A DNA stretch of 64,000 nucleotides from Chitinophaga sp. SYP-B3965 (GTDB lineage: Bacteria > Bacteroidota > Bacteroidia > Chitinophagales > Chitinophagaceae). The stretch is from assembly GCF_009647655.1 (NCBI RefSeq), contig NZ_WJFD01000001.1:1178001-1242000 (forward strand), written 5' to 3'. Below are positions 16,382 through 31,950 of the stretch, piece after piece. Both the position numbers and the translations under genes were made by a program. The notes beneath the pieces are model-generated. The model made no database searches and was not told the origin of the DNA. It worked only from the letters and a program-made list of their open reading frames with translations. How positions within the stretch are numbered: position 1 is the first letter of the stretch; the number at the start of each line of letters is the position of its first letter.

Positions 16382-16590
16382 AAAGATTGTTTTTTGGTGA
16401 ACATTCAATTTACGAAATATCAGCTTCCGCCGGTTTGTCAAATGACAAGAAATCAGTGTTTTTGACAGTGATTTATTCACAATTTGAAAATAATAGTAAT
16501 GCAATCCATTGAAAAAAGCCCCTCTGCAATCAAAACCACCTTTTAAGAATTTTATTATACTTTGCATTTTGTTTTAAACCAGGGGAACAT

Positions 16591-17193
16591 TTGCCAACCA
16601 ACTTTCTACATATTGATCATCCGGACCTGCTTTCCAGCATAGCGGATGGGAATGAGAAGGCAATGGAGATCCTCTTTCATGCATATTACCCTCGTTTGAA
16701 ATACTTCTGCCTGGACCTCATGAAAGATGCCGCGGAAGCGCAGGATATTGCCCAGGATGCCATCGCTGCTTTCTGGGACCGGCGGGAGGGTTTCCGGGAT
16801 GCGACGGTTAAGGCCGCGGGGACTTTCCTTTTTACAGTAGCCCGTAACAAATGTCTGGATCATAAGAAACACCTGCAGGTCCGCCTGGCCAAACAGGACG
16901 AAATAGCCGGCGGGCAGGAGATCTCGGAAGACGTCCTGGAAGCCACTATCATCAAGGAAGACCTCTTTAACCGTATTTTCCAGGAAGTGGAGGGACTGCC
17001 CCCCAACCAGGTAGAACTGCTGAAAATGATCTTCGTAGAGGGATTGGATACACTTGAAATAGCCCAAAAGCTGGGCATAACACCTAATAATGTCCGCAAC
17101 CAAAAGGCCAGGGCGCTGGAAAAACTGCGCGCTGTGTTATTGAAGAAACGCCTGATACTTCCCTTTTTTTATTTATTTATGAAATCGCTGTGA
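16591..17193 (+). CDS. ECF RNA polymerase sigma factor (Bacteroidota SusCD-linked type)
   Basis: A 200-residue sigma-70 family protein. Region 2 spans about 25-90 (LFHAYYPRLKYFCLDLM, AQDIAQDAIAAFWDRR) and region 4 about 130-190 (LPPNQVELLKMIFVEGL, LDTLEIAQKLGITPNNVRNQ helix-turn-helix). The start is read as TTG at 16591, preceded by AGGGGAAC as a ribosome-binding site; the first in-frame ATG would remove part of region 2. It is followed by a FecR anti-sigma and a SusC gene with an N-terminal STN domain, the classic signalling cascade in which the outer-membrane receptor tells FecR to release the sigma factor. It probably activates the operon behind it. Confidence 0.92.
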   Translation: MPTNFLHIDHPDLLSSIADGNEKAMEILFHAYYPRLKYFCLDLMKDAAEAQDIAQDAIAAFWDRREGFRDATVKAAGTFLFTVARNKCLDHKKHLQVRLAKQDEIAGGQEISEDVLEATIIKEDLFNRIFQEVEGLPPNQVELLKMIFVEGLDTLEIAQKLGITPNNVRNQKARALEKLRAVLLKKRLILPFFYLFMKSL

Positions 17194-17241
17194 TGCGGAG
17201 CGGTCTTCAGTCGTTTATTTATTACAGGCTGATAATACATT

Positions 17242-18393
17242 ATGAAAACAGAGATCACTGCCATATTATATAAACACGTTCGGGAAGAGGAGATAAGCCC
17301 GGAAGAAGGCGTGTTGCTGGAGGCCTGGCTGCAACAGTCAGCGGCCAACCGGGCCGTATTTGAGCAGATACAGGATGAAGGTGAGATAGACCGCTACCTT
17401 GCGGTTATGCTGGACTTTCAGCATACCGAAAACGCATTTCAATTATTCAGGGAGAATAAGCTTACAAAACGCAGCATACCATTATATCGCAGATGGTGGG
17501 CGGCAGCATCCGTTTTATTATTACTGGGCGCCGGCTCGTACTTTTTTGCCAACCGCTCACAGCACGTGATGCCCGTTGCGGCAGTATCGGATATTCAGCC
17601 CGGCAAAGCAGGCGCCATCCTCACTTTGGCTGACGGCTCTGAGATCCTGCTGGACACGATGCAGAATGGGAGCGTGGCTATACAAGGCGGTGTAATTGCG
17701 AAAGTAACAAACGGCAAACTCTCTTATGAAGGAAATGGTGACCAGCCCTTGTATAATAAGATCGCTATACCCAAAGCCCGCCAATACCAGCTGAGATTAC
17801 CTGATGGTACGATCGTATGGCTGAATTCAGCCAGTACGATCCGCTATCCCACTGCCTTCACAGGTCATGAACGAAAAGTGGAGATCACAGGAGAAGCTTA
17901 CTTTGAAGTAGCGAAAAACAAGGAAATGCCATTTGTGGTGAATGTTAATAATAAGATGGCGGTAGAAGTATTGGGCACGCATTTCAATATCAATGCCTAT
18001 CAGAATGGAGATAACATTGCCACCACTTTGCTGGAGGGTGCTGTAAAGATAGTAAGAGGTAATGAGCAACGTGTTATCAGGCCGGGAGAACAGGCGCAGG
18101 TGAATACGCATATTGAGGTGACCAATAAGATAGATACCAGCCAGGTAATGGCGTGGAGGAACGGTATGTTCAACTTTGAAAACACTTCGCTGTTAGAAGT
18201 AATGCGGCAACTGGAACGCTGGTACGATATTGACGTGGTATATGAAAAAGGTATACCGGACATAGACCTGATAGGCAAAATGACAAGGGATGTGCCGCTG
18301 AATGGCTTACTGAAGAATCTAAAGGAACTAGGGGTGAATTACAGACTGGAAGGCCGCATATTGACGGTGCTGCCAGGGAATGCAAAGGAGTAA
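17242..18393 (+). CDS. FecR-family anti-sigma factor
   Basis: A 383-residue single-pass inner-membrane protein. The cytoplasmic N-terminal ~83 residues bind the sigma factor; one helix follows (about 85-101, WWAAASVLLLLGAGSYFF); the periplasmic part contains the FecR domain (about 117-275, with LPDGTIVWLNSASTIRYP and GEAYFEVAKNKEMPF) and a C-terminal DUF4974 domain (FNFENTSLLEVMRQLERWYD). The DUF4974/STN-like part is thought to contact the STN domain of the receptor. It lies between the sigma gene and the STN-containing SusC gene, as expected. Confidence 0.93.
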   Translation: MKTEITAILYKHVREEEISPEEGVLLEAWLQQSAANRAVFEQIQDEGEIDRYLAVMLDFQHTENAFQLFRENKLTKRSIPLYRRWWAAASVLLLLGAGSYFFANRSQHVMPVAAVSDIQPGKAGAILTLADGSEILLDTMQNGSVAIQGGVIAKVTNGKLSYEGNGDQPLYNKIAIPKARQYQLRLPDGTIVWLNSASTIRYPTAFTGHERKVEITGEAYFEVAKNKEMPFVVNVNNKMAVEVLGTHFNINAYQNGDNIATTLLEGAVKIVRGNEQRVIRPGEQAQVNTHIEVTNKIDTSQVMAWRNGMFNFENTSLLEVMRQLERWYDIDVVYEKGIPDIDLIGKMTRDVPLNGLLKNLKELGVNYRLEGRILTVLPGNAKE

Positions 18394-18453
18394 ACAATAC
18401 ACGCAATATATCATGCAATTTCAATAGCCTTCGTGGCTAAAGGGGGAAAGTAT

Positions 18454-18512
18454 GCCCGCTTCAAACAAAGAGCCGGATACCGACTGGAATCGGTAACCGG
18501 CGACGTTCGGGC
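18454..18512 (+). promoter_or_regulatory. Structured RNA element in the FecR-SusC spacer
   Basis: GCCGG-A-TACCGA (18472-18483) pairs with TCGGTA-A-CCGGC (18490-18501), giving 11 base pairs with one A/A mismatch and a six-base loop. An outer helix GCCCG (18454-18458) / CGGGC (18508-18512) closes it. No T-run follows. It ends 50 bases before the susC ATG, so it may protect or regulate the susC message, or separate it from the regulatory genes. Confidence 0.5.
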
Positions 18513-18562
18513 TTGAACCAATGACATCTAACCATTTTTTCTCAACCAAACATTCACAATTT

Positions 18563-21500
18563 ATGCAAAAAACTGCGGATTGTGGTGTGCGCTTTTTCCG
18601 TGTGCCCATTGGGCATCCGGTTTGCGGCAGGCATCACACGCTAACCAAAATCGTCATGGTTATGAAGCTAACCATCTTCTTTCTGACTACTGTTCTTGTT
18701 CATGCCTATGCCTCCGGCAGCGCACAAACGGTCACACTGTCCGGCAAAGACCTGCCGTTGAAACAGGTTTTCACTGCTATTGAAAAGCAGACGGGGTATG
18801 TAGTGCTTAGCAGTAAGGACCTTATTGCCAGCCGTAAATCTATTTCCCTGGATGCCTACAACCTGCAGTTAAATGATCTGCTGAACATTGTGTTGAAAGA
18901 CATTCCGTTCAAGTATGATATCCAGGGTAAAACTATTTTTATCTCCCGAAAACCAGCAACCTCTCCTCCCGCCACTTTTCCCATGCTGCCACCGGTGCCA
19001 CCGCTGAATATCAAAGTCATCAACCGGGCAGGTGTTCCGCTTTCAGGTGCTTCCGTCGTCAACAAAAAGAAAAGGCGGTCCGGTATAACGGATGCCACTG
19101 GTATGCTGCACTTAGACGTTTCTCCCGGAGACGTGATCGAGGTGTCCTACATTGGTTATGAAACCAGGTCCGTTCCTGTCACCGAAACCCTTGCTTATGC
19201 CACCAGCCTTATTATTCAATTGGAACCTTCGGTTACCGTGCTGGAAAATGTGCAGGTGGTGGTTAACACCGGTTATCAGCGCATCCGGCCGGAGCAGAGT
19301 ACAGGAGCGATCTCGCAGATCACCACGAAGGAATATGAATCGCAGATCAGTACGGATTTCCTGTCTGGCCTCAATGGAAAAGTATCCGGCCTGCTCATCA
19401 ACAATGATATCAAATTCAACAGTACGGTGAATGGCGTTCCTTCTTCCAAAAGTCTCTTTAATATCCGCGGTATTTCTACCATCACGGGCAATCAAAATCC
19501 ACTGATCGTGATTGACGGATTTCCTACGGAGCTATCGTTGAGTATGATAGATCCTAATGAGATCAAATCCATCACCATCCTCAAAGATGCGGCGGCTGCC
19601 ACGGTTTACGGGGTGCGTGCATCCAACGGTGTGATCGTGATCGAAAGGAAGAAGGCGACAGCAGGGCATCCCAGGATGAATTTCCGTGCTACTACCAGTT
19701 TTACGCCTGCAGATGATTATACCCGTTACCGCTGGGCGAAAGACGGCTCAGCGATCAATGTGGGGTATGATCAGGACATCAATAAGAACAGTATAGATGC
19801 TACTACCTGGAATCGCCTGAACACCAGTAACAGCGCCAATGCAGAAACGCCGGCGTACTACATTATGGCGCAGCAGGCTGCCTCCATCATCACACCGGAT
19901 CAGGCTTCCAGGGCATTCGATGCGCTGAAAGATCATAATAATTCGGCGGAATACGGCAAGCTCTTCCAACGTACCGCCTCTATCCAAAATTATCACCTGG
20001 ATGTGTCCGGCGGCAGTAGCAATGCTACTTATTATTTTACGGCCAATTACGCGCGTAACAAACTCGCTCAGATAAATAATGATAACAACCGGATCATTCT
20101 TTCCGGCAGAACCACGTTGCAGCTCTCTGAACGCTTGTCTGCAGAGCTGATGACAGACTACCAGGAAAACCGCGAGAATGCTGCGCCCGTTCCAGATATC
20201 AACAGCATTTATCCCTATGAGCGGCTGCAGGATGCAAACGGGAAACCTATGCCCATTATCAGTGGTTCTACTATCAACCCGTTCTATAACAAGGTAATGA
20301 TGGATAACGGGCTACTGGATTACCTGTATTATCCCATGACAGACGTGCATGAAATAAACGACAGAACGCGCAGCACCAGCAACAGAACTACCCTCAATTT
20401 TAATTATAAACTGCTGCCGGGTATTACGGTCACATTAGGTGGTATTTACGAAGGTAACACCATCAATCTCCGTCATAACGCCTCTGAAAGATCTTCAGAA
20501 GCACACCAGTATATAGACAGCTATGTTACGCAGAATACAGATGGAAGCCTTGTTTTTAATATTCCCAAAGGCGGATTCCTGCGTGAACAAAATACAAAGA
20601 CGAGCAGCTATACCATTCGTGCGCAGCTGAACTACGACAAAACGATCGGTAAGGACCATGCCATCAACGGCATTGCGGGTGCAGAAGTAAGGAACCTCAC
20701 CCAACAGGGAAGCAGTGCTGCTTACTTTGGTTACAATGATGAAACTTTGCTGCAGCAGCCCATCAACTATGATGGTATTGCCAACAGCACTATCATCGGT
20801 TCATTTGTAAACCGCCGCAACATCAATTATGCCAACCTGTTTGATCAATTGTACACAGAGGACCGGTTTGTATCCGGGTATTCCAATATCGTGTACACTT
20901 ACAAAAGAAGGTATTCACTGACCGGTAGTATCCGCATTGATCAGTCTAACCTTTTTGGTACGGATCCAAAGTATCGCTACAAACCATTATGGTCAGTAGG
21001 TGGTGCATGGAATATTGCCAATGAGCATTTCATGCAGGGCGCCCCCTGGCTGAAACAGCTGAAACTGCGTGCAGCATATGGTTTTAACGGGAACGTTGCC
21101 AAACTCTCACTTCCACAGGTCATTGCACAGAGTTATCTGAACACCTATACCACACCTTACTCCGATGCCCTGCGCTTGTTCGCCAATGCTAACAGTGGCC
21201 TGCGTTGGGAACAAACGAAGAATGTGAATGTCGGCCTCGATTATGGTATCCTGGATAATGTGAGCGGCAGTATAGACTTCTATCACAAGAACAGTACAGA
21301 CCTGCTGGCCAGCGGACAGATCGATCCTACCATTGGTACGAGTCCTTCTTTCATCAACAATGCTTCCATCAACAACCAGGGGATGGAAATAACGCTGCGG
21401 TCAGACTGGATCAAAAAAGCAAATGTGAACTGGAATACAGGTTTCGTGCTTTCCTACAACACCAGCAAAGTGTTGAAGATCTATCAGAACCTCACGTTAT

Positions 21501-22162
21501 GGCCCTCCAGCACAAATGCCGCAGGGTATGTGGAAGGCCAGCCGGTAGGAGCTTTATATGCCTATCGTTATGCCGGCCTGGATGCCAATGGCATGCCGAT
21601 GGTACGGGATGACAAAGGCAATACATCTTCCTCTCTGAATTATGATAATACTTCTGCAGCATTCTATTATACGGGAACTTCTATTCCCACTACTAATATC
21701 GGCCTGAGTAACCGGTTAGACATTGGTAACTTCTATTTCTACTGCATGGTGAGTTATTACGGCGGGTTCAAAGTACAGGTGCCACGTGCTGATCCTGCAG
21801 CTTTCCGTCCGTTAGATGGGGCTGGTAATTACTGGAAAGCACCCGGTGATGAAAAGAACCCTGATGCGGTAATGGCGCTGGCAGGTTTTAATGATTTCTT
21901 TGCAGGAATGGTGTACCGGAATGCGGACAACTATGTCGTGAAAGGTAACTATGTGACCATCCGGGATATCACGGCGTCTTATACTTTTAACAACAGCCTG
22001 TTCCTGAAGCGGATCGGTATGAACCATTTTGAAGTGAAACTGCAGGCATCGAATGTGTGGACGCGTGGGTTGAACAAATACAACTACAGTATGGCAACAG
22101 GCAGTTATGCCAAGCCTTACATCACGCCCACTTATTCAGCAGCGCTCTTTACTAATTTCTAA
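18563..22162 (+). CDS. SusC/RagA TonB-dependent outer-membrane transporter with STN signalling domain
   Basis: A 1199-residue protein from the ATG at 18563 (MQKTADCG); an upstream ATG at 18521 is less likely because it falls closer to the hairpin. A long basic leader precedes a signal-peptide core (KLTIFFLTTVLVHAYASGSA). Next come an STN domain (VTLSGKDLPLKQVFTAIEKQ to KTIFISRK), a carboxypeptidase-regulatory-like domain (LNIKVINRAGVPLSGASVV), a TonB plug (VVNTGYQRI, LFNIRGIST, PLIVIDGFP, ASNGVIVIERK) and a 22-strand-type barrel ending YSAALFTNF. It imports a ligand captured by the SusD partner and signals to FecR. The substrate is unknown; no glycoside hydrolase is present in the operon, so a peptide, metal complex or other ligand is as likely as a glycan. 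Confidence 0.93.
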   Translation: MQKTADCGVRFFRVPIGHPVCGRHHTLTKIVMVMKLTIFFLTTVLVHAYASGSAQTVTLSGKDLPLKQVFTAIEKQTGYVVLSSKDLIASRKSISLDAYNLQLNDLLNIVLKDIPFKYDIQGKTIFISRKPATSPPATFPMLPPVPPLNIKVINRAGVPLSGASVVNKKKRRSGITDATGMLHLDVSPGDVIEVSYIGYETRSVPVTETLAYATSLIIQLEPSVTVLENVQVVVNTGYQRIRPEQSTGAISQITTKEYESQISTDFLSGLNGKVSGLLINNDIKFNSTVNGVPSSKSLFNIRGISTITGNQNPLIVIDGFPTELSLSMIDPNEIKSITILKDAAAATVYGVRASNGVIVIERKKATAGHPRMNFRATTSFTPADDYTRYRWAKDGSAINVGYDQDINKNSIDATTWNRLNTSNSANAETPAYYIMAQQAASIITPDQASRAFDALKDHNNSAEYGKLFQRTASIQNYHLDVSGGSSNATYYFTANYARNKLAQINNDNNRIILSGRTTLQLSERLSAELMTDYQENRENAAPVPDINSIYPYERLQDANGKPMPIISGSTINPFYNKVMMDNGLLDYLYYPMTDVHEINDRTRSTSNRTTLNFNYKLLPGITVTLGGIYEGNTINLRHNASERSSEAHQYIDSYVTQNTDGSLVFNIPKGGFLREQNTKTSSYTIRAQLNYDKTIGKDHAINGIAGAEVRNLTQQGSSAAYFGYNDETLLQQPINYDGIANSTIIGSFVNRRNINYANLFDQLYTEDRFVSGYSNIVYTYKRRYSLTGSIRIDQSNLFGTDPKYRYKPLWSVGGAWNIANEHFMQGAPWLKQLKLRAAYGFNGNVAKLSLPQVIAQSYLNTYTTPYSDALRLFANANSGLRWEQTKNVNVGLDYGILDNVSGSIDFYHKNSTDLLASGQIDPTIGTSPSFINNASINNQGMEITLRSDWIKKANVNWNTGFVLSYNTSKVLKIYQNLTLWPSSTNAAGYVEGQPVGALYAYRYAGLDANGMPMVRDDKGNTSSSLNYDNTSAAFYYTGTSIPTTNIGLSNRLDIGNFYFYCMVSYYGGFKVQVPRADPAAFRPLDGAGNYWKAPGDEKNPDAVMALAGFNDFFAGMVYRNADNYVVKGNYVTIRDITASYTFNNSLFLKRIGMNHFEVKLQASNVWTRGLNKYNYSMATGSYAKPYITPTYSAALFTNF

Positions 22163-22171
22163 ATCTACACT

Positions 22172-23530
22172 ATGTTATACAAAAGATATTTAACAGGATT
22201 TATTGCGCTTGGCTGTTTGGCCATCAGCGCCTGCAACAAATATCTGGACATTACGCCCAAAGGGTTCACTATACTCTCCACCGTTAACAATTATGATCAA
22301 TGGCTGAACGATGCAGATAAACTCGGCGCATCTGCTACCGCGGAACTGAACCTGCTGGCGGATAATGTTGATAATGTAAATATTAAGGTGCCGGCGGTAT
22401 CAGCGAATGAGCTGGTCTATACCTGGGCTCCGCAATTCAATACAGATCTGAAAGCTGCTCCGGCCTGCTGGGGTGCTCACTATGCCAACATCAACAAGTA
22501 CAATACGGTACTGCTGGGTATTGATGATGCAACCGGCGGCACACCGGCAGCGAAAAGGGCACTGAAGGCTGAAGCGTTGCTGGGCAGGGCATTTGAGTAT
22601 TTCTATCTCGTTAATTTATACGGAAAGCCATATGATCCTGCAACGGCAGATAAAGACCTGGGCGTTCCTTTTGTTACGTCTAACGATGTAACGCAGCAAG
22701 TACCGGGAAGAAGTACGGTGAAGGAGATCTATGATCACATCATTGCAGATATCAGCACGGCTTTACCTGATCTGGCGAAAGACAACAGCAAGAACCGCTA
22801 CCGTGGCTCTGTGCCGGCAGCATACAGTGTACTGGCAAGGGTATACCTGTATATGCGGAATTATCCTGAAGCCAGTAAGAATGCAGCACTCGCCATACAA
22901 ACGGGCACGCTTTCTATGTTGGATTTCAGAACCACGCTCCCCAATACGGTAAGTTCGTTAAGTACCAGGCAGGATGCTATCTATTCCCGCAGGCTGATGG
23001 GGTACGAATCGCCGGATTCTGCTTTCCTTAGCAGTTTCAGCAAGAAGGACCTCCGCCTGGCACTGATGTACAGTTCCAGCGATAATTATTCCAGGCGTGG
23101 AAATACGACTTACTTCCCCCTGATAACCAACTACGCCTTGCAGAGCACCAATACCGGCACCTCATTGCCTGAAATGAAACTGATCATTGCAGAGGCTGCG
23201 GCACGTGCCACTGACCTTACTACGGCGCTTACCCAGTTGAACGAAATAAGGGTGATGCGTTTTGCCACTGCGGATTACCAGCCGCTGCAATCAGGTGATC
23301 AGGAAGAGGTATTGGCGTGGGTGCTGCGTGAACGGAACAATGAAATGCCTTATAGCGGATTACGCTGGTTTGATATGCGGCGTTTGGATAAGGAAGAAAA
23401 AATGCCGGTGGTGAACAGGTACGATGCCAGGGGTAATATCATTGCCACGCTTCCGCATGCGGCAGCAGCTTACACGCTGAAGATCCCGGTACAGGTACTC
23501 TATTTTAATCCAGGTATGCAACAAAATTAA
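22172..23530 (+). CDS. SusD/RagB-family ligand-binding surface lipoprotein
   Basis: A 452-residue lipoprotein with lipobox AISAC (Cys21) followed by NKYLDITPKG, the usual SusD start. The tetratricopeptide-like helical fold is suggested by ALLGRAFEYFYLVNLYGKPY, YSVLARVYLYMRNYPEAS and the C-terminal RWFDMRRLDKEE. It forms the lid over the SusC barrel and determines what is bound. It begins nine bases after susC. The protein is somewhat shorter than many SusD proteins (often 500 or more residues), which often goes with small non-glycan ligands, but that is only a hint. Confidence 0.92.
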   Translation: MLYKRYLTGFIALGCLAISACNKYLDITPKGFTILSTVNNYDQWLNDADKLGASATAELNLLADNVDNVNIKVPAVSANELVYTWAPQFNTDLKAAPACWGAHYANINKYNTVLLGIDDATGGTPAAKRALKAEALLGRAFEYFYLVNLYGKPYDPATADKDLGVPFVTSNDVTQQVPGRSTVKEIYDHIIADISTALPDLAKDNSKNRYRGSVPAAYSVLARVYLYMRNYPEASKNAALAIQTGTLSMLDFRTTLPNTVSSLSTRQDAIYSRRLMGYESPDSAFLSSFSKKDLRLALMYSSSDNYSRRGNTTYFPLITNYALQSTNTGTSLPEMKLIIAEAAARATDLTTALTQLNEIRVMRFATADYQPLQSGDQEEVLAWVLRERNNEMPYSGLRWFDMRRLDKEEKMPVVNRYDARGNIIATLPHAAAAYTLKIPVQVLYFNPGMQQN

Positions 23531-23537
23531 TTCCTGC

Positions 23538-24446
23538 ATGATGAACAAGAACACCATTTTACTTTGCTGGATGCTGGTTATACTGGCATCCTGCAGCAAA
23601 GACAACGATAAAGTAGTAATACCAGCGGGCAGCATTTCTTTTGCCCGGCTCCAGGTATCAGATACGATATTACTGAATTTGCCTGTCGAAAATGATTCAG
23701 TAGCTATTGTGAACATAAACGCCATAGCCAATGCACCCATTGCGGGGGATCATAACGTCACCTTTGCCGTGGATAATGAGAAGCTGACGGAATATAAGGC
23801 GAAGTATGGCGAGGCATTGTTGCTGCCAGCTAACTCGTGGCATTTTTACCAGCCTTCCTGTAATATCGGGGGGCCGGCTTCAGAGATCAACATTGTGCAG
23901 GGCACAAAGTTGAAATCACTCACCACTTATGTGTTGCCGATCGTTATCCAATCCGTAGATGGTATCGAAGGCGATGCCGCGAAAGATCAGACGCTTTTTA
24001 TTGTAGTCAAAACCGGCAGGTCTTCTGTTATCTCAAAGGCAGGCTGGAAGATCCAAAGCGTGTCTTCTGAAGACCTGTTCAATCCGGCGCGCAACCTCCT
24101 GGACGATGATGTGAATAGCTTATGGTCAACAGAAGATGGCATACCGCAACATGTAGTGCTGGACCTTGATGGCACGATAGATTTCAGTGCAGTGACCTAT
24201 CGTACGCCTGCGCCGTTCTACACACAACAAGGTGGTTATGTAAAGCAGTTAAAGATCGAAATAAGCATGGATGGTTTAAACTGGGAGGATAAAGGAACGT
24301 ATGGCGGGCAAACCAGCGATGCTAAACAGGTTGTTGCAACGGGAAACTGCACGGCCCGGTATCTGAAATTCACTATACTTTCTATAGAACCTTTCTTCGG
24401 CGCTTATAACATAGCGTTGATCGGAGACATAGGTCTAATGCCATAA
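23538..24446 (+). CDS. Surface lipoprotein with DUF1735 (BT_3987-like) and F5/8 type C domains
   Basis: A 302-residue lipoprotein with lipobox ILASC (Cys19). Residues about 30-155 form a DUF1735-like immunoglobulin-type domain (VENDSVAIVNINAIANAP, KYGEALLLPANSWHFY, VLPIVIQSVDG). Residues about 165-300 form a discoidin/F5-8C domain (NLLDDDVNSLWSTED, PQHVVLDLDG, VKQLKIEISMDGLNWED, ARYLKFTIL). Such proteins accompany SusCD pairs and bind carbohydrate or other ligands at the cell surface. It starts seven bases after susD. A third ligand-binding component of the uptake system is the likely role. Confidence 0.85.
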   Translation: MMNKNTILLCWMLVILASCSKDNDKVVIPAGSISFARLQVSDTILLNLPVENDSVAIVNINAIANAPIAGDHNVTFAVDNEKLTEYKAKYGEALLLPANSWHFYQPSCNIGGPASEINIVQGTKLKSLTTYVLPIVIQSVDGIEGDAAKDQTLFIVVKTGRSSVISKAGWKIQSVSSEDLFNPARNLLDDDVNSLWSTEDGIPQHVVLDLDGTIDFSAVTYRTPAPFYTQQGGYVKQLKIEISMDGLNWEDKGTYGGQTSDAKQVVATGNCTARYLKFTILSIEPFFGAYNIALIGDIGLMP

Positions 24447-24458
24447 AATAATCTCCAT

Positions 24459-25601
24459 ATGAAAATAATGAAAATTTACAGGAATTTTTTCCTGACGGGA
24501 ATGGTATGCCTGCCTGTATTGGCAAACGCCCAAAGCAAAGACTATCTCCTCAACGTAAAATTGAATGAAAGCTCGGATGCAGTGAAAGCATACCTGATGC
24601 AGGAAAATAGGGTGGATTCGGTTGATGTGGTAAAGGGTAAATGCCAGTTTAAAGGTGCTGTGGAAGCTGCTGCGAGAGTAAACCTGATAGTAGTGCATAA
24701 AAACGCCAGTCCTTTAGACAGGGATGCACTGAATTTTTATTTAGAAAGCGGGAAGACCGATATCAATGGCAGCGAAAATATCGGGGAGGCCACCATTAGC
24801 GGATCGAAGATCAATGAGAGCCTTAAAAAGTACGAACAACAGCTGGCGCCCGTTCAAAAACAAGTGAATGATGTGATCATGGCGTTAACGGCAAGGGGAG
24901 AGACGGAGAAAACGGAAGCTTTTATGGAAAGCTGGAAGAAGTTGTATGAAGAGGCTATGCTAAAACAACACAACTTCCGCGCGGCATATATTCAGCAGCA
25001 TCCGGATGAAACCTTCAGCCTGATCGTTTTGAGAGATATGATCAATACACGGCTGATGAATGGTGAATTTGATCCGGCTGTAACACCGGTTTTCGGTCAT
25101 CTTTCGGAAAGGATACGTACTACTGAAATGGGGGTGGCGCTGAAAAAGGATCTTGACAGAGAGAAAGGCTCTCTGGTAGGGGTAACTGCACCCGATTTTA
25201 CACAGAATGATGTGAACGATAAGCCTGTTAGCCTGAAAGATTTCCGCGGTAAATATGTGTTGCTGGACTTCTGGGCTTCCTGGTGTGTGCCTTGCCGCAA
25301 GGAGAATCCCCATGTGGTAAAAGCCTATGCAAACTTTTCAGACAAAGGGTTTACCGTGCTCAGTGTTTCGCTGGATATGCCTGGTGAAAAGGATAAATGG
25401 CTGGCTGCTATAAAAGATGATGGTCTTGCATGGACGAATGTTTCCGACCTGAAAGGCTGGAATAACGAGTTGGTGAAATTGTATAGCATCAGAGGTGTGC
25501 CGCAGAATTTCCTGATAGACCCTAATGGGAAGATCGTTGCGAAAGGCTTAAGAGGAGAGGACCTGGAAAAGAAACTGGCGGAGATTTTAAGTAAACAATA
25601 A
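24459..25601 (+). CDS. TlpA-family thiol-disulfide oxidoreductase with DUF4369-like domain (operon copy)
   Basis: A 380-residue exported protein, signal peptide about 1-24 (PVLANA), then a DUF4369-like beta domain, a helical middle, and a thioredoxin fold with active site WASWCVPCRKE (Cys276, Cys279) and GVPQNFLID. It has the same length and layout as the protein at 5847-6989. The start may instead be the ATG at 24468. Lying within the SusCD operon, it probably keeps thiols of an operon product or of an imported cysteine-containing ligand reduced. TlpA proteins next to SusCD pairs are frequent in Bacteroidota, but their clients are seldom known. Confidence 0.9.
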   Translation: MKIMKIYRNFFLTGMVCLPVLANAQSKDYLLNVKLNESSDAVKAYLMQENRVDSVDVVKGKCQFKGAVEAAARVNLIVVHKNASPLDRDALNFYLESGKTDINGSENIGEATISGSKINESLKKYEQQLAPVQKQVNDVIMALTARGETEKTEAFMESWKKLYEEAMLKQHNFRAAYIQQHPDETFSLIVLRDMINTRLMNGEFDPAVTPVFGHLSERIRTTEMGVALKKDLDREKGSLVGVTAPDFTQNDVNDKPVSLKDFRGKYVLLDFWASWCVPCRKENPHVVKAYANFSDKGFTVLSVSLDMPGEKDKWLAAIKDDGLAWTNVSDLKGWNNELVKLYSIRGVPQNFLIDPNGKIVAKGLRGEDLEKKLAEILSKQ

Positions 25602-25611
25602 ATCAAACTAC

Positions 25612-26541
25612 GTGAAACAAAGCATTGTTAAAATTGAGCATCTTTCTCATAAATACACCCGGGACTGGGCGATCCGTGATATCAGTTTTGATATTGATAA
25701 AGTGGGGATACTGGGACTTCTTGGATCAAACGGCGCCGGTAAGTCTACCACGATGAATATTCTTTGCGGGGTATTGAATCAAACAGAAGGCAATGTTTTT
25801 ATCAACGGCATCAACATCAGGGAAAAACCGGAAGAGACGAAAAAACTGCTTGGTTTCTTACCGCAAAATGCACCACTGCACCTGGAATTGACGGTAGAAG
25901 AATACCTGACTTACTGCGCCGCTATAAGGGACGTAGCAAAAGATAAAGTGAAAAAAGCGGTAGAGGAGGTCATGGAAAAATGTGGTCTTACACATTTTCG
26001 CAAACGGGTATTGCGCAATCTTTCCGGTGGCTACCGCCAGCGTGCCGGTATTGCGCAGGCCATCATTCATAAACCCCGGCTGGTAGTACTGGATGAGCCC
26101 ACCAATGGACTGGACCCTAATCAAATACTGGAAGTGAGGAAACTGATCCGCGAGATCGGGGAAGAAAGAGCTGTGATATTTTCTACCCATATCCTTTCAG
26201 AAGTACAAGCTATCTGTAAAGAAGTGAAGATGATCGAGAGCGGCCAGATGGTATTTGCGGATACGATGGATGCTTTTAACAATTATGTGCTGCCGGATTC
26301 TATGCTGCTTGCTATGGATAATCCACCTGCTGCCGAAGAACTGAGTGCTATACCAGGCATTACGGGGGTTGAATTCCTCAATGACAGAAGCATCCGGTTA
26401 CGTTTTTCTGCGGATAAGGATGTACCCAAACGGGTTATTACGCATGCCGTTCAACAAGGATGGGAATTAACGGAACTGGTGCAGGAAAGAACATCCCTGG
26501 ATGAAGTTTTTGCGCAATTATCCAAAAAAACAAAAAGATAA
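25612..26541 (+). CDS. ABC transporter ATP-binding protein (GldA/CcmA-like)
   Basis: A 309-residue ATPase with a GTG start at 25612, ten bases after the preceding stop. Walker A GSNGAGKST is at 38-46, signature LSGGYRQR at 137-144, Walker B LVVLDEP at 157-163 with Glu162, and the switch His in FSTHILSE. A C-terminal extension of about 90 residues follows. This is the drug/lipid-exporter (DRA) class, which also contains GldA of the gliding-associated transporter. The next gene encodes the matching permease fused to a GldG-like domain, so these two form one transporter. Confidence 0.93.
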   Translation: MKQSIVKIEHLSHKYTRDWAIRDISFDIDKVGILGLLGSNGAGKSTTMNILCGVLNQTEGNVFINGINIREKPEETKKLLGFLPQNAPLHLELTVEEYLTYCAAIRDVAKDKVKKAVEEVMEKCGLTHFRKRVLRNLSGGYRQRAGIAQAIIHKPRLVVLDEPTNGLDPNQILEVRKLIREIGEERAVIFSTHILSEVQAICKEVKMIESGQMVFADTMDAFNNYVLPDSMLLAMDNPPAAEELSAIPGITGVEFLNDRSIRLRFSADKDVPKRVITHAVQQGWELTELVQERTSLDEVFAQLSKKTKR

Positions 26542-26548
26542 AATATTC

Positions 26549-28864
26549 ATGAGAAAGATATTAAAGATTGCAAAGCTTGAGCTTAGTATTTTGATCTATT
26601 CGCCGGTTATCTGGATCGTGCTTCCCATATTTTGTGTGTTGTGCAGCATCACCGTGATGGGAACGCTGGAAAGCTTTCAGAATTCCATTGCGTTGCACGG
26701 GCGGTTGTCGAGCCCTATTACCAGGAACGTTTATGGTATACCGGCCGGTTTTTTTGTAACTATTCAGCAGACCCTATACCTATATCTGCCTATTTTGACC
26801 ATGGGCATCATGAGCCGGGAAACCAGCAGTGGTTCTATTAAGCTATTACTGTCTTCCCCGGTTAAACTACGGGAGATCATTCTTGGCAAGTACCTGGCAC
26901 TGGTAACACTGTGCCTGGCTTTTATTGCCATCATCACTTTATTTGCCATTACCGGTATTTTGACCATTGAACATGCAGATACGGGTATGTTGATGGCAGG
27001 AATATTCGGGCTGTTCCTGCTGATCTGTACCTATGCGGCCATCGGGCTTTTTATGTCCTGCCTCACTAACTACCAGATCGTGGCAGCCATCGCTACGCTG
27101 GCAGTATTTGCGGCATTAAGGTATGTAGGTGGCATCGGCCAGTCTATGGATATTGTGCGGGATATCACTTCCTTCCTTTCCATTTCAGGCAGCATTCAAA
27201 TGATGATCATGGGATTGATCTCCACGAAAGATGTGGCGTACTATCTGATCATCATATTCCTGTTCCTCGCACTGTCCGTACTTTACCTGAGAAATCAGCG
27301 TGAGCTGAAACCCTGGCGTGTAAAGGCAGGGCGTTATGTGCTCCTGCTTGTAGCTGTGTTTGGTGTAGGTTATCTCACCACCATTCCCGCATTGATCGGT
27401 TATCTCGATCTGTCCGCAGGAAAACAAATGACGATCTCAGTACCCGCTCAGCAGGTAGCAAAGAAGATAACCGGGAAATTGAAGATAACCACCTATGTGA
27501 ACATGCTGGCGCCTAATCCATACAATTTAATGCCGGTGTTCCGCAATGGTGATCTCGAATCTCAAAGCATGTACAAGCGCTTTATTCCGGGTATTGAGAA
27601 TGAGTACGTGTACTATTACCATGAGATCACAGATACCATGATGTCCGTTACCAGGTGGAACCCCAATTTCAAGGGTATCAAAGACATTCATGAGCTGGGG
27701 GAAAAAGTTGCTTTGGTGAGCGACTTCGACTTTAAAAATTTCGTAGGGCCTGAAGAGATTGACAAAATGATCGATCTTAAACCGGAGGGCTACATGAATA
27801 TCAGGAAGCTGGAATACAACGGGAAAAGCACTTACCTGCGGTTCTTTATGGATGAATATGGACAGTACCCGCAGGAAGCAGAATGGATAGCCGCATTGAA
27901 ACGTTTATCGGTAGAAGATCCCAATATCCTCTTTTTATCCGGCAATAATGAAACAGGTATTTCGGATAAGAAGGACCGGGGATATGCCACTATCCTCAGT
28001 GATAGATCCAAAAGAAAGGCGATGGTGAACCAGGGTTTCCAGGTGGATACGATTAACCTGGACAGCCAGGACCTGCCTGCTAAAACTGACATCCTGGTGA
28101 TTGCTGATCCTACGGTAGCTCTGAGTGATATCACGCTTGGAAAAATAAAACAGTATATAGAACGCGGAGGAAACCTGCTGATCACTACTAATCCCGGAAG
28201 GCAATCTGTTATCAATCCTGTTTTAGCTAACCTGGGTATTCAGCAAAAGCCGGGCATGTTAGTTAAGCCGGAAAAAGATCTTGACCAGCAAAAGATTGCT
28301 GCTGTATATGCACCGCAGGCAAAAGACATTGACCGTTATGTGCCACTCTTTCTACAGGCAAAAAAGAATGTGATATTAGATAAGGCTTCCGCTTTAATAT
28401 ATGATGCATCCGGTCCTTTTGAAATTCAGCCATTATTGATGAGCCCTGCAGGTGGCTGGAACAAAGTGGTACCTGTTAATGACAGTATGCCTTCACTGGT
28501 GTTTGATGTCGCACAGGGCGATGAAAGAGGCACCTTCCCGGTTGCTGTAACCCTGAAACGAAAAGTGAACGGCAAAGAACAACGCATCATTGTTTCCGGT
28601 GATGCAGACTACCTCGGCAATAGCCAGTTTGAAAATGTAGAACGGGAGGTAAAAGAAGTAAGACTGTACAGTGTAGACATTTTGTTCAGGTGGCTGAGCA
28701 TTGGTCAGTTTCCGTTCGATGAGAACCGGCCTGAGGCTAAAGACGTAGATATGACGGTTAGCAAGGAACAGCTTTCCCTGTTGACGATTGCTTTCAAATA
28801 CATTCTCCCGGCGATACTAGTAATACTGGGTGCTATTATCCTGTTCAAAAGACGCAATAACTGA
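26549..28864 (+). CDS. ABC permease fused to GldG-like domain (GldF-GldG fusion)
   Basis: A 771-residue protein from the ATG at 26549, which is seven bases after the ATPase stop. The N-terminal ~270 residues hold about seven membrane helices of the ABC-2 permease type (GldF-like: TMGIMSRETSSGSIKLLLSSPV and similar). After a periplasmic entry comes a large soluble GldG/ABC-transporter-auxiliary domain (about 290-730; KLKITTYVNMLAPNPYN, FLSGNNETG, ILVIADP, IERGGNLLITTNPG), then one final helix (about 745-765) and RRNN. GldA, GldF and GldG are needed for gliding or T9SS function in Flavobacterium; in others such transporters have unknown cargo. Here the fusion and the SusCD setting suggest a different cargo. 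Confidence 0.88.
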   Translation: MRKILKIAKLELSILIYSPVIWIVLPIFCVLCSITVMGTLESFQNSIALHGRLSSPITRNVYGIPAGFFVTIQQTLYLYLPILTMGIMSRETSSGSIKLLLSSPVKLREIILGKYLALVTLCLAFIAIITLFAITGILTIEHADTGMLMAGIFGLFLLICTYAAIGLFMSCLTNYQIVAAIATLAVFAALRYVGGIGQSMDIVRDITSFLSISGSIQMMIMGLISTKDVAYYLIIIFLFLALSVLYLRNQRELKPWRVKAGRYVLLLVAVFGVGYLTTIPALIGYLDLSAGKQMTISVPAQQVAKKITGKLKITTYVNMLAPNPYNLMPVFRNGDLESQSMYKRFIPGIENEYVYYYHEITDTMMSVTRWNPNFKGIKDIHELGEKVALVSDFDFKNFVGPEEIDKMIDLKPEGYMNIRKLEYNGKSTYLRFFMDEYGQYPQEAEWIAALKRLSVEDPNILFLSGNNETGISDKKDRGYATILSDRSKRKAMVNQGFQVDTINLDSQDLPAKTDILVIADPTVALSDITLGKIKQYIERGGNLLITTNPGRQSVINPVLANLGIQQKPGMLVKPEKDLDQQKIAAVYAPQAKDIDRYVPLFLQAKKNVILDKASALIYDASGPFEIQPLLMSPAGGWNKVVPVNDSMPSLVFDVAQGDERGTFPVAVTLKRKVNGKEQRIIVSGDADYLGNSQFENVEREVKEVRLYSVDILFRWLSIGQFPFDENRPEAKDVDMTVSKEQLSLLTIAFKYILPAILVILGAIILFKRRNN

Positions 28865-30183
28865 TGAGTTTTAAAACCGATAAGCAAACACAGGAAGACC
28901 TGAATATTTTCAGTAAGCCAGGCAAGGATGCTGTTTTTAATATCTACAATCAAACGCATACCAGCGGCGGCGCAACTATCCTGGAAAGGTTATTCCTGTT
29001 TCCGCTGGATAATGCAGATGCTATCAACAACAGAAGTCTGACCATTCAGTTCTTCAGCAGGGTAACATTGCCTTTCCCCATCAAAGCAGCTGCACTGGAC
29101 AGTGCAGAGATCTACCTGGCCATGACTGATCCGAGAACAAGGCTTTCGGCTGAGCAGCAGAATTTAACCAGGAAATTCAGCCAGATGATCTCTGCAGATG
29201 GCGATTACAAACTGATCGTTCAGGGGATAGGGGCCATACTGGAAATATGTACGGACCTGGCTGTTTTTCTGAAAGAGATCGGTCCAATCCCGCAAGACCT
29301 GCAGGCGATAGAAGGGTTGCTAAAAACTATTATGAGTGAGGGCCGGCCCAATGCAAAACTTTCCTATGAAACAGCGGTTCGTCTGGATGGGGTGTTCAGG
29401 TTCACTATCCGCGATACAGTAAAGGAAATACTCGCTTACATCTATCACCTGGATGTGTACATGTCTATTGCACAGGTAGCAACAGCGCGTAAATATGTTT
29501 TCCCGGTTGCCCTTGATAAGGGTGATCATACGGTAACACTGCGCCAGGTTTACCACCCCCTGGTTAAAAATGCAACAGCAAATGATATCACCATCACCCC
29601 TGAGAAGAATGTTTTATTTCTTACCGGGGCTAATATGGCTGGTAAATCTACTTTAATGAAATCGATGGGGATTGCGCTTTACCTGGCGCATATGGGCCTG
29701 CCTGTAGCAGCCGAAGGAATGGAATTTTCTGTGAGGGATGGCATATATACTACCATCAATCTCCCGGATGACCTGAGTTCCGGGATTAGTCATTTCTATG
29801 CAGAGGTGTTGCGGGTAAAGAAAGTAGCCAAAGAGCTGGGAGCAGATAAAAACCTGTTCATCATTTTTGATGAGCTTTTTCGTGGTACGAATGTAAAGGA
29901 TGCATATGAGGGAACCATTGCTATTACACAGGCTTTTGCGGGAAGGCGGAACTGCATGTTCGTGGTTTCTACACACATCATTGAAGCAGGAGATGTATTG
30001 GCAAAGCAATGCCCCAATATCAATTTTGTGTACCTCCCTACCAGGATGGAGGGGAACACACCTGTGTATACTTACAAACTGGAAACAGGTATTACGGCAG
30101 ACCGGCATGGCATGGTCATCATCAATAATGAACGGATCCTGGAGATCATCAGGAGCAGAAAAAGCAAAACAGCGAGCGTATGA
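28864..30183 (+). CDS. MutS-type ATPase without mismatch-recognition domains (first of pair)
   Basis: A 439-residue protein whose ATG shares one base with the preceding stop. The first ~230 residues are helical and correspond to the lever/clamp region; the C-terminal ~200 are the MutS ATPase: Walker A GANMAGKST (255-263), then LAHMGLPVAAEGMEFSVRDG, GISHFYAEVLRVKKV, Walker B LFIIFDELFRGTN and FVVSTHIIEAG. The N-terminal mismatch-binding and connector domains of true MutS are absent, and there is no Smr domain as in MutS2. Small MutS-like proteins of this form occur widely in Bacteroidota and their role is unknown. Its place in a transport operon is unexpected for a DNA-repair protein. Confidence 0.85.
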   Translation: MSFKTDKQTQEDLNIFSKPGKDAVFNIYNQTHTSGGATILERLFLFPLDNADAINNRSLTIQFFSRVTLPFPIKAAALDSAEIYLAMTDPRTRLSAEQQNLTRKFSQMISADGDYKLIVQGIGAILEICTDLAVFLKEIGPIPQDLQAIEGLLKTIMSEGRPNAKLSYETAVRLDGVFRFTIRDTVKEILAYIYHLDVYMSIAQVATARKYVFPVALDKGDHTVTLRQVYHPLVKNATANDITITPEKNVLFLTGANMAGKSTLMKSMGIALYLAHMGLPVAAEGMEFSVRDGIYTTINLPDDLSSGISHFYAEVLRVKKVAKELGADKNLFIIFDELFRGTNVKDAYEGTIAITQAFAGRRNCMFVVSTHIIEAGDVLAKQCPNINFVYLPTRMEGNTPVYTYKLETGITADRHGMVIINNERILEIIRSRKSKTASV

Positions 30184-31487
30184 GTTTCTTTGCAGATAAA
30201 CAGACCTTGAATGACCTCAATATTCCGGGGCGCCATAAGAACAATTCCATCTCCCGTCTTTTTGATACCGTGATCACCATGGGTGGCCGTAAACTGATGG
30301 ACCATCTGTTCCAGCATCCGTTAACGGATGCGGAGGAGATCAATCAGCGAAGCAGCATATTCAGGTACTTCTCTACCCAGCCTGTAACTTTTCCGTTTAC
30401 AGCGGAAGAATTTGCGGTGATGGAAAACTACCTGAGCGCGGGAGGGAGCAATATCATGCACGTGCTCTCTAAGAAAGTATTGCAGATCGTAGCGCAGGAT
30501 ACCGCATATGAGCAATTAAACGGGGAAATATGCAAGACCATTGAAATGCTCAACCATTTCAGGGATTTTGCTGAACAGCTGCAGGACCGGGAAGGTGCTT
30601 ACAAAGAGCAGCTGGAATTGATCGGGGTAATTTTTCGTCATCCAAAACTCAGCTGGCTGCAGCAGGAGCGGGGAGTGAACAGCTTATCCCTGGTGAAACT
30701 GGTGAAGTATGATCATCTGCTGAGAACAGCCATGCATGCCCAAATGAAGCAGCTGATGACGCTCATCTTTCATCTGGATGTATATGTGGCGGTATCAGCC
30801 ATTGGCAGGCAAAGAAGATTTAATTATGCAGTTGCGCTGCCCAAAAGCAGTAACAAGTTAACGATTACGGATCTTTATCATCCTGCGGTTGAAAATGCCA
30901 TAGGAAATACGGTTTCCTTATCCGGGAACAAAAACGTGATATTCCTCACAGGAGCAAACATGGCAGGGAAATCTACCCTGATGAAATCTTTCGGGATCTG
31001 TGTTTACCTGGCACATATGGGTTTTCCGGTGGCAGCCAGCCAGATGGAATTCTCTGTGATGGATGGCCTCTATACTTCCATTAACGTACCTGATAGCCTG
31101 GAATTGGGCTACAGTCATTTTTATGCGGAGGTGCTTCGTGTAAAAACAGTAGCGGAAGAAGTAGCTGCGGACAAGGACCTGTACGTAATATTTGATGAGC
31201 TGTTTAAAGGCACCAATGTTAAAGATGCCTATGATGCCACGCTAAGCATCACCGAAGCTTTTTCGGAAAACAGGAACTGCTTTTTCATTATTTCCACGCA
31301 TATTATTGAAGTAGGAGAGGCACTAAGGGAGCAGTGTGATAATTTCAGCTTTACTTATCTCCCTACCATTATGGAAGGCCATAAGCCTACTTATACCTAC
31401 AAACTAACGGAAGGTATTACACAGGACAGGCAGGGGATGATCATTATAGAGAATGAGGGGATCCTGGAGATCGTAAAAGGGGGCTAA
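30180..31487 (+). CDS. MutS-type ATPase without mismatch-recognition domains (second of pair)
   Basis: A 435-residue paralogue of the preceding protein, overlapping it by four bases (ATGA). The same blocks appear in the same order: Walker A GANMAGKST (258-266), LAHMGFPVAASQMEFSVMDG, GYSHFYAEVLRVKTV, Walker B LYVIFDELFKGTN and FIISTHIIEVG. N-terminal similarity is weaker (both begin with MSF, K/ADKQT and DLN). MutS ATPases act as dimers with composite sites, so the pair probably forms a heterodimer. It is the last gene of the operon and is followed by a terminator. Confidence 0.85.
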   Translation: MSFFADKQTLNDLNIPGRHKNNSISRLFDTVITMGGRKLMDHLFQHPLTDAEEINQRSSIFRYFSTQPVTFPFTAEEFAVMENYLSAGGSNIMHVLSKKVLQIVAQDTAYEQLNGEICKTIEMLNHFRDFAEQLQDREGAYKEQLELIGVIFRHPKLSWLQQERGVNSLSLVKLVKYDHLLRTAMHAQMKQLMTLIFHLDVYVAVSAIGRQRRFNYAVALPKSSNKLTITDLYHPAVENAIGNTVSLSGNKNVIFLTGANMAGKSTLMKSFGICVYLAHMGFPVAASQMEFSVMDGLYTSINVPDSLELGYSHFYAEVLRVKTVAEEVAADKDLYVIFDELFKGTNVKDAYDATLSITEAFSENRNCFFIISTHIIEVGEALREQCDNFSFTYLPTIMEGHKPTYTYKLTEGITQDRQGMIIIENEGILEIVKGG

Positions 31488-31538
31488 GCCAACCATTATA
31501 AATTGAAGAGAGCTTTTCTTGTTAAGTGCTCCAAAAGC

Positions 31539-31565
31539 AAAACGGCCTTTTAGGCCGTTTTGTTA
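31539..31565 (+). terminator. Terminator of the SusCD-ABC-MutS operon
   Basis: AAAACGGCCT (31539-31548) pairs with AGGCCGTTTT (31552-31561), a ten-pair helix with a three-base loop, then TGTTATTG and further T-rich sequence. It lies 52 bases after the last stop. Confidence 0.85.
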
Positions 31566-31950
31566 TTGTTCTTTTATTCTTTCAACGAAAAGAGAAAAAC
31601 TGCCTAAAAGGTCGTTTTGCTTTTGTTCTTTTATTCTTTCAACGAAAAGAGAAAAGGCTGCCTAAAAAGGTCGTTTTGCTTTTGTTCTTTTATTCTTTCA
31701 ACAAGAAGAGAAAAGGCTGCCTAAAAGGTTGTTTTGCTTTTGTTCTTTTATTCTTTCAACAAAAAGAGAAAAGGCTGCCTAAAAAGGTCGTTTTGCTTTT
31801 GTTCTTTATTCTTTCAACAAAAAGAGAAAACTGCCTAAAAGGTTGTTTTGCTTTTGTTCTTTTATTCTTTCAACAAAAAGAGAAAAGGCTGCCTAAAAAG
31901 GTCGTTTTGCTTTTGTTCTTTATTCTTTCAACAAGAAGAGAAAAACCGCC
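31557..31950. repeat. Seven-unit tandem repeat (about 55-59 bases per unit)
   Basis: Each unit reads approximately TTTTGCTTTTGTTC, TTTATTCTTTCAAC, a purine block AAAAGAGAAAAGG and CTGCCTAAAAAGG. Units differ by single substitutions (CGAAAAG, AAAAAG, AAGAAG) and by one- to three-base indels. Two unit types alternate (with -AAAAAGGTC or -AAAAGGTT). The junction sequence GCCTAAAAGGTCGTTTTGC is a near copy, in reverse, of the operon terminator stem, so the array probably grew from that terminator. A + frame runs through it, but it is low-complexity and follows the repeat. Confidence 0.9.

Follow-up and report, generated by a model that had tools for sequence, protein, structure and literature searches.

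The window analysed here comprises 64,000 nucleotides of Chitinophaga sp. SYP-B3965 (NCBI RefSeq assembly GCF_009647655.1, contig NZ_WJFD01000001.1, positions 1,178,001 to 1,242,000 of the forward strand). At positions 16591 to 31487 it holds an operon of ten genes, in which genes for signalling and for outer-membrane uptake of the SusC-SusD (SusCD) type are followed by an ATP-binding cassette (ABC) ATPase, a GldF-GldG fusion (GldFG) and two short MutS-family ATPases (MutSa and MutSb). A first, sequence-only reading of the window had taken all ten genes for one unit. The conserved piece is smaller, namely the four-gene cassette ABC ATPase, GldFG, MutSa and MutSb, over which the receptors are swapped. 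The interpretation tentatively favoured is an uptake operon of modular build, induced by its ligand, that most likely serves peptides or proteins and carries an ATP-driven inner-membrane cassette.

Cassette copies in the same genome

A MutS_V search of the 7.14 Mb genome yielded 14 matches, ten of which form five adjacent MutSa-MutSb pairs. Each of the five pairs directly follows an ABC ATPase and a GldF-GldG fusion, behind a SusC-SusD pair. Identity between the window and the four remaining copies is 50-64% for the ABC and MutS genes, 36-40% for gldFG, and only about 23-31% for SusC and SusD. Sigma and FecR genes are present at all five copies, with the sigma gene reversed in the C12 copy (L222), and lipoproteins and TlpA differ from copy to copy.

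The sequence-only reading had held that relatives with the SusCD part, but not the ABC/MutS part, in unrelated positions would make the block a chance neighbourhood. Locus L217 of the same genome, a sigma-FecR-SusC-SusD-F5/8C-TlpA operon lacking the cassette, is literally of that kind and favours a chance assembly of unrelated genes. This does not follow, however, because the cassette recurs behind other SusCDs; a fixed order found at five places in the genome and in at least four families refutes chance for practical purposes.

Besides the five pairs, the genome contains a lone MutS-like gene (L012, G000:C9:829620-830939) of 442 amino acids, about 29% identical to the pair; Chitinophaga genomes without a pair give one MutS match of similar strength (E about 1e-88 to 1e-98). 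A related Sig-FecR-SusC-SusD-ABC-GldFG operon without the MutS pair is found at L061 (G000:C1:1466727), with similar genes of 737-745 amino acids in genus-mates. GldFG of this type covers the 764-position profile only up to position 627.

Recurrence in genus, family and phylum

Linkage was counted in 80 named loci, the best of 574 picked by MutS similarity from genome contigs, which overlap in genomes with the genus set; the cassette-free loci L012, L014, L015 and L062-L065 are left out of the counts. The named loci include Chitinophaga, Niastella, Pseudoflavitalea, Mucilaginibacter, Pedobacter, Sphingobacterium, Butyricimonas, Odoribacteraceae, Rikenellaceae and Dysgonomonas. A MutSa-MutSb pair is present in 63/80 and a single fused MutS protein in 17/80. 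GldFG lies directly upstream of MutS in 70/80, and in 60/80 the chain of same-strand genes runs back without a break to SusC and SusD. SusCD lies just downstream in eight of the 20 loci without such a chain (L170, L171, L182, L186, L187, L194, L201, L216), and several of the 20 stop at a contig edge.

Within the genus, 66 regions were hand-picked from match lists, some of them for lacking MutS and some overlapping, and do not form a random sample. MutS is present in 54 of them; among these, GldFG is directly upstream in 47 and SusCD is reached in 49.

All 79 genus genomes (own genome included) contain some MutS match, and 56 contain at least two, the best at E 1e-102 or better. These 56, two of them incomplete genomes with two matches, are read as holding one or more MutS pairs. 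Pair copy number ranges from 0 to 7 per genome. Module-type GldFG is present in 56/56 genomes with module-type MutS vs 5/23 without, counts that ignore shared ancestry; the check for correlated gene loss suggested by the sequence-only reading is thus positive. At E 1e-102 or better, 24/244 genomes of the family match, two of these via a single gene near the threshold, as do 3/395 genomes in an even draw of the phylum (own included); as the E thresholds derive from sequences of the genus, both counts have probably missed distant members. The combination, which the sequence-only reading did not recognise as a described system, recurs in this genome and in several families, and no account of it or of the cassette turned up in the openly available PubMed Central (PMC) literature, subscription papers being outside the scope.

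MutSa and MutSb are fused into one open reading frame (ORF) of about 880-930 amino acids at G062:C3:285094, G107:C22:5921 and G069:C1:1524526, and likewise at L162, L169, L173, L174, L180, L189, L190, L193, L195-L199, L202, L203, L208 and L210. The Pedobacter loci L180, L190, L193, L196-L199, L202 and L210 show the order GldFG, fused MutSab, M16-length gene, second GldFG.

Exchange of receptors over the cassette

Pairwise distances were correlated over 82 loci (the 91 with all six genes complete, minus near-copies). Correlations are highest within ABC-GldFG (0.86), SusC-SusD (0.74) and MutSa-MutSb (0.67), intermediate between ABC or GldFG and MutS (0.44-0.48) and lowest between SusC or SusD and the cassette (0.18-0.34). 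Median identities in the same loci are 25% for SusC and SusD, 61% for ABC, 53% for MutSa, 50% for MutSb and 42% for GldFG. Each of the three pairs SusC-SusD, ABC-GldFG and MutSa-MutSb is closely co-inherited, and receptors are exchanged over the cassette.

The window itself is an example. Its cassette is 86% (ABC), 71% (MutSa), 68% (GldFG) and 62% (MutSb) identical to that of genus-mate L079, with SusC only 28% identical. The nearest SusC and SusD among cassette loci are those of L103 and L181 (46-52%), and the nearest in its own genome those of the cassette-free L217 (53 and 54%). In the tree, window MutSa and MutSb group with a locus of Mucilaginibacter, which belongs to another family, rather than with L010 of the own genome; L010 is the sole own-genome copy sampled, and the closest genus-mate cassette, L079, is absent from the tree. 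Cassette genes of different families interleave, a pattern that could reflect either horizontal movement or old paralogy. A single family of cassette SusCs was considered and rejected, as several non-cassette SusCs of the own genome outrank other cassette SusCs against the window SusC.

The operon in the window

The features of the operon are as follows.

16591..17193, +, ECF (extracytoplasmic function) sigma factor; Sigma70_r2 and r4 (Pfam); TTG-start ORF, start position provisional
17242..18393, +, FecR-type anti-sigma factor; FecR 3.8e-17, FecR_C 3e-14
18521..22162, +, SusC TonB-dependent transporter with STN signalling domain; TIGR04056 480 bits; STN, Plug
22172..23530, +, SusD lipoprotein lid; SusD-like_3 7.4e-26, SusD_RagB 2e-10
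23538..24446, +, lipoprotein-type protein with BT_3987-like N domain and F5/8 type C domain; accessory; 38% identical gene in cassette-free L217
24459..25601, +, TlpA/ResA-type thiol-disulfide protein; accessory; AhpC-TSA 7.8e-25, DUF4369 1.6e-11; W-C-V-P-C site
25612..26541, +, cassette gene 1, GldA/DrrA-like ABC ATPase; ABC_tran 7.4e-33; TIGR03522 283.5 bits
26549..28864, +, cassette gene 2, GldF-GldG fusion (GldFG); ABC2_membrane_2, ABC_transp_aux; NosY-like membrane domain and C-terminal GIFT domain
28864..30183, +, cassette gene 3, MutSa, short MutS-family ATPase; MutS_V 3.8e-28, MutS_III 2.6e-5; Walker A, FDELFRGT
30180..31487, +, cassette gene 4, MutSb, short MutS-family ATPase; MutS_V 8.4e-29, MutS_III 1.2e-6; Walker A, FDELFKGT
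31536..31564, +, terminator-like hairpin after mutSb; 13-pair stem, T-rich tail; consensus match only

All ten ORFs lie on the + strand, and coordinates, Pfam and NCBIfam agree with the families first named from the sequence. The intergenic gaps of 7-12 bases described earlier hold from susC to the ABC gene. Overlaps in the distal part stand for gldFG/mutSa (1 base) and mutSa/mutSb (4 bases), but not for the ABC gene and gldFG: the gldFG ORF as listed opens at 26501, inside the ABC gene, and alignment of homologues places the start at ATG 26549, leaving a 7-base gap. The hairpin at 31536-31564 is the best terminator-like site and starts 48 bases 3' of mutSb; a promoter-like site at 16462-16491, upstream of the sigma gene, is likewise a consensus match only. 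Overall counts are near shuffled expectation (promoter-like sites 22 vs 28.6, terminator-like sites 18 vs 15.2). Layout and hairpin are compatible with one predicted transcript.

Between mutSb and a convergent ABC-type gene at 31971-33923 lies a tandem repeat (31552-31944) with 6.8 copies of a 58-base unit (92% matches); its first copy overlaps the hairpin.

The MutSa-MutSb pair

MutSa and MutSb of the window are 435-439 amino acids long and match only MutS_III and MutS_V in Pfam, with no Pfam match to the mismatch-binding domain I and no match to the SMR domain. The catalytic motifs are kept: Walker A occurs in 91/91 MutSa and 91/91 MutSb, the Walker B pattern in 88/91 and 91/91, respectively. 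The residue after FDELF is R in 88/88 pattern-matching MutSa and K in 91/91 MutSb. In our alignment this site corresponds to Arg697 of E. coli MutS, and the PDB title of 1ng9 names MutS R697A an ATPase-asymmetry mutant. The domain III motif and Walker A are mostly 254-261 residues apart vs 349 in the genome's own MutS1, i.e. about 91 fewer (the pattern failed in 6 MutSa and 9 MutSb); judged by this spacing, the missing stretch may be the clamp domain, located between lever and ATPase.

Neither protein reaches the MutS2 equivalog (92.4 and 78.9 bits vs a cut-off of 400) or that of the KamC reactivase ATPase (119.4 and 110.6 bits vs 300). In the tree, MutSa is recovered as a single clade (support 99/96). 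MutSb falls on the opposite side of that branch and is weak as a clade (61/0); one old duplication would be the simplest reading. A model of the naturally fused MutSab of L189 (predicted local distance difference test, pLDDT, 83.6; predicted template modelling score, pTM, 0.61) matches MSH2, MutS and MutS2 with Z up to 38.1, the VIA-align structure comparisons here and below being limited to the folds in their lists.

Because the motifs are kept, the R/K asymmetry is consistent, the region before Walker A is shorter, domain I is not matched and the fused model resembles MutS proteins, MutSa and MutSb look like heterodimer-type ATPases without at least part of the MutS grip on mismatched DNA. 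They share the domain III and V fold and the heterodimer logic with MutS, MSH2-MSH6 and MutS2, but differ in lacking a mismatch-binding domain match and an SMR match, and in the shortening relative to MutS1. The cassette would give such a cut-down pair a likely job outside DNA repair.

The ABC-GldFG transporter

The likeness to GldA and GldFG noted from the sequence holds as homology, but is paralogous only. The window ABC ATPase scores 283.5 bits against TIGR03522 (GldA), below the cut-off of 402.6, and the true GldA is located at G000:C13:55124 (422 bits). Window GldFG reaches 81.5 bits against the GldF equivalog (cut-off 288.5) and is not among the three genome matches to the GldG equivalog (cut-off 389.85) at E up to 0.001; the true GldG is at G000:C10:101210 (547 bits). 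With true GldA and GldG genes elsewhere and scores below the equivalog cut-offs, a role as the gliding-motility ABC transporter was rejected. The cassette shares with GldA-GldF-GldG a homologous ATPase, a permease and a GIFT-type domain, but has GldF and GldG fused. Walker A, LSGG and DEP motifs of the ABC ATPase are kept in 91/91 loci compared.

In the GldFG model (pLDDT 86), the membrane domain is nearest to NosY (7znq_y, Z 20.7, root-mean-square deviation 2.7, 231 residues aligned), and the C-terminal domain to IFT52 (Z 23.1), followed by an oligosaccharyltransferase subunit (Z about 21), which corresponds to the GIFT fold; the oligosaccharyltransferase chains matched are presumably Ost48. 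NosY, the best solved match of the membrane domain, belongs to the NosDFY copper-maturation complex, for which a mechanical push by the ABC complex has reportedly been proposed. Unlike that system, the ten operon proteins contain no NosD, NosL or nitrous oxide reductase, and the cassette has a GIFT domain instead.

Accessory genes and cargo

The census of accessory genes took in proteins of 140 amino acids or more and counted exact duplicates once, so that the counts per locus are lower bounds. The 78 genes just downstream of MutSb comprise 34 M16 peptidases, 11 TlpA-type, 5 S41, 4 trypsin-type and 2 S46 proteins, and an HxxEH motif near the N-terminus is found in 34/36 accessory genes of more than 750 amino acids. 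Between SusD and MutS, 75 genes comprise 14 DUF4397, 11 DUF4843, 11 PKD_2, 9 TlpA-type, 4 weak Peptidase_Mx1 and 1 S8. Over 133 cassette loci, an adjacent M16 is present in at least 34, one of four peptidase kinds in at least 44, and a peptidase or TlpA in at least 57. The control consists of 52 genes that follow 22 further SusCD pairs in the own genome, the pairs being spread by hand down the ranking of its SusC matches. It contains 0/52 M16, S41, trypsin-type or S8 and 6/52 TlpA-type proteins; BNR, kelch and symporter families appear there.

A fairer measure of the M16 link comes from 16 genus genomes, in which 11/27 full-length M16 genes lie directly behind a MutSb, with the M16 domain match starting 164-222 bases after it; about 60 MutS pairs (120 matches) are present in these genomes. 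Another three long genes match M16 only weakly (E about 1e-9) and stand outside the 27.

Glycoside hydrolases are absent from the window operon, from all 22 families of the 75 internal genes and from the 25 of 47 families shown for the 78 downstream genes. A glycan locus, suggested by the SusC-SusD pair, was rejected, with no carbohydrate-active enzyme family among those examined; the earlier judgement that a polysaccharide locus is unlikely agrees with this. A TlpA-like gene occurs in at least 6/53 genus loci and at least 12/80 named loci (exact duplicates counted once). TlpA is optional in cassette loci and also stands beside the ordinary SusCDs of the control, so that the cysteine-containing client once proposed is not indicated. 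A link to viruses was rejected, as a scan of viral contigs gave no relative of the window TlpA.

In L071, the M16 is far closer to PqqL (3.4e-73) than to protease III (1q2l; 3e-8); its further PDB matches 6b03, 6b05 and 6brs we take to be FusC. According to PMC6793856, both PqqL and FusC are components of protease-associated import systems. Since M16 and other peptidases stand beside cassettes, this M16 is PqqL-like, and PqqL and FusC act in import systems, a peptide or protein is the best guess for the cargo; for the window's own receptor we infer the same. A portion of the cassette loci resembles the Fus and related systems (FusA-FusC-FusD, YddB-PqqL; PMC6793856) in clustering a TonB-dependent receptor, a PqqL-like M16 and an inner-membrane transporter. 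Cassette loci differ in having SusC with a SusD lid, a GldFG-type ABC transporter and an added MutS pair, and the M16, though present in at least 34/133 loci, occurs neither in the window operon nor at the own genome's other four.

Piracy of a metal or cofactor in the Fus manner, with a metal- or cofactor-carrying protein or peptide as cargo, its metal centre freed by periplasmic M16 or TlpA and handled by the NosY-like ABC transporter, would draw on the same PqqL-kind M16, on the Fus layout of receptor, M16 and inner-membrane transporter (PMC6793856) and on the NosY match. No metal-binding family is prominent among the accessory families listed, however, and receptors of 25% median identity are very diverse for one cofactor; we regard this explanation as improbable.

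Among SusCD systems, the peptide importers BT2261-64 and RagAB are comparable in their SusC-SusD pair, and some cassette loci carry DUF4843 and PKD_2 lipoproteins; those of L009 gave no useful PDB match and hence no tie to BT2261/BT2262 by sequence. The window SusC differs in being closer to 8ypu, to further SusC homologues of solved structure and to RagA than to BT_2264. To our knowledge, neither ABC-GldFG nor a MutS pair is part of the BT2261-64 or RagAB systems.

Anti-phage defence was rejected, with PADLOC giving matches to ATPase models only (mad3 as the strongest, at 2.7e-27 for the ABC protein, best stretch 72 residues), 0.0025 or worse for the MutS proteins and nothing for GldFG or TlpA. 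Detoxification is another explanation: receptors would admit harmful, e.g. antimicrobial, peptides, ABC-GldFG tuned by MutSab would expel them or protect their target, and the sigma/FecR trio would sense the threat. A type-2 ABC permease with a NosY/ABCG-like fold, peptidases and a thiol protein able to destroy peptides, and a patchy, multi-copy cassette (0 to 7 pairs per genome) whose genes from different families are intermixed in the tree would all suit it. An operon that pays for high-capacity import of this very cargo, however, is more in keeping with feeding than with defence, and the PADLOC result speaks against detoxification as well, so that this explanation appears unlikely.

Proposed function

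In the uptake operon favoured here, binding of cargo to SusCD would be signalled via STN, FecR and the sigma factor, and SusCD would bring the cargo across the outer membrane. Processing in the periplasm may then follow, by TlpA and, at other copies of the cassette, by peptidases of the M16, S41, S8 or trypsin type. At the inner membrane, the ABC ATPase and the NosY-like, GIFT-carrying GldFG would use ATP on the product, either translocating it or pushing mechanically, and a cytosolic MutSa-MutSb heterodimer would serve as dedicated ATPase partner of the ABC-GldFG machine and not as a mismatch-repair protein. ABC-GldFG and MutSab are taken as one machine because their genes overlap, are co-inherited and co-occur in the genus genomes. 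Their action after import, the last step of the mechanism, is its least certain part.

A wider proposal, which we consider possible but doubtful, is that several families of the phylum have put a heterodimer of MutS-family proteins to new use as the dedicated cytosolic motor, or gate, of an envelope transporter. The resulting generic ABC-GIFT-MutS machine would fit onto interchangeable SusCD receptors and use ATP to handle imported peptides or proteins at the inner membrane. Outer-membrane uptake, mostly of glycans, is what SusCD systems are known for, and little is understood of how the inner membrane deals with cargo other than glycans. A cassette kept while receptors change would mark a general step after import. 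Butyricimonas and Odoribacter, both gut genera, have loci among the cassette carriers, giving the cassette relevance beyond soil bacteria.

Several observations weigh against the favoured interpretation. The cassettes L188, L209 and L173 have no SusCD in the available DNA; at the Odoribacteraceae loci L162, L174 and L195, the fused MutS adjoins neither GldFG nor SusCD; and ABC-GldFG occurs without MutS in 12/66 genus regions, of which L075 and L085 continue pair-holding regions and the others were mostly selected for lacking MutS. One of the four peptidase kinds stands beside only 44/133 cassette loci (a lower bound), the window operon has no peptidase, none of the own genome's five cassettes has an M16 neighbour, and the M16 link comes from other species, with this one genome as its gene-level control. 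ABC-2 transporters are mostly exporters, which makes inward transport doubtful.

The loci lacking a nearby SusCD would also suit an envelope or nucleic-acid task of ABC-GldFG-MutSab itself, merely borrowing the promoters of Sus operons, as would the loose correlation of cassette and receptor distances and the MutS pairs that have no adjoining ABC-GldFG. Several of these pairs stand just before a second Sus operon with ABC-GldFG (L081/L082, L084/L085, L074/L075, L124). This explanation seems rather unlikely: SusCD is reached by an unbroken chain in 60/80 named loci and lies downstream in eight more, with others at a contig edge, and random hitching would not pick Sus operons so consistently.

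Other features of the window

Apart from the operon, the window encodes on the - strand (53831-63925) a 3364-amino-acid protein that contains eight HYR_4C stretches and carries a type IX secretion signal (CHU_C) at its C-terminus.

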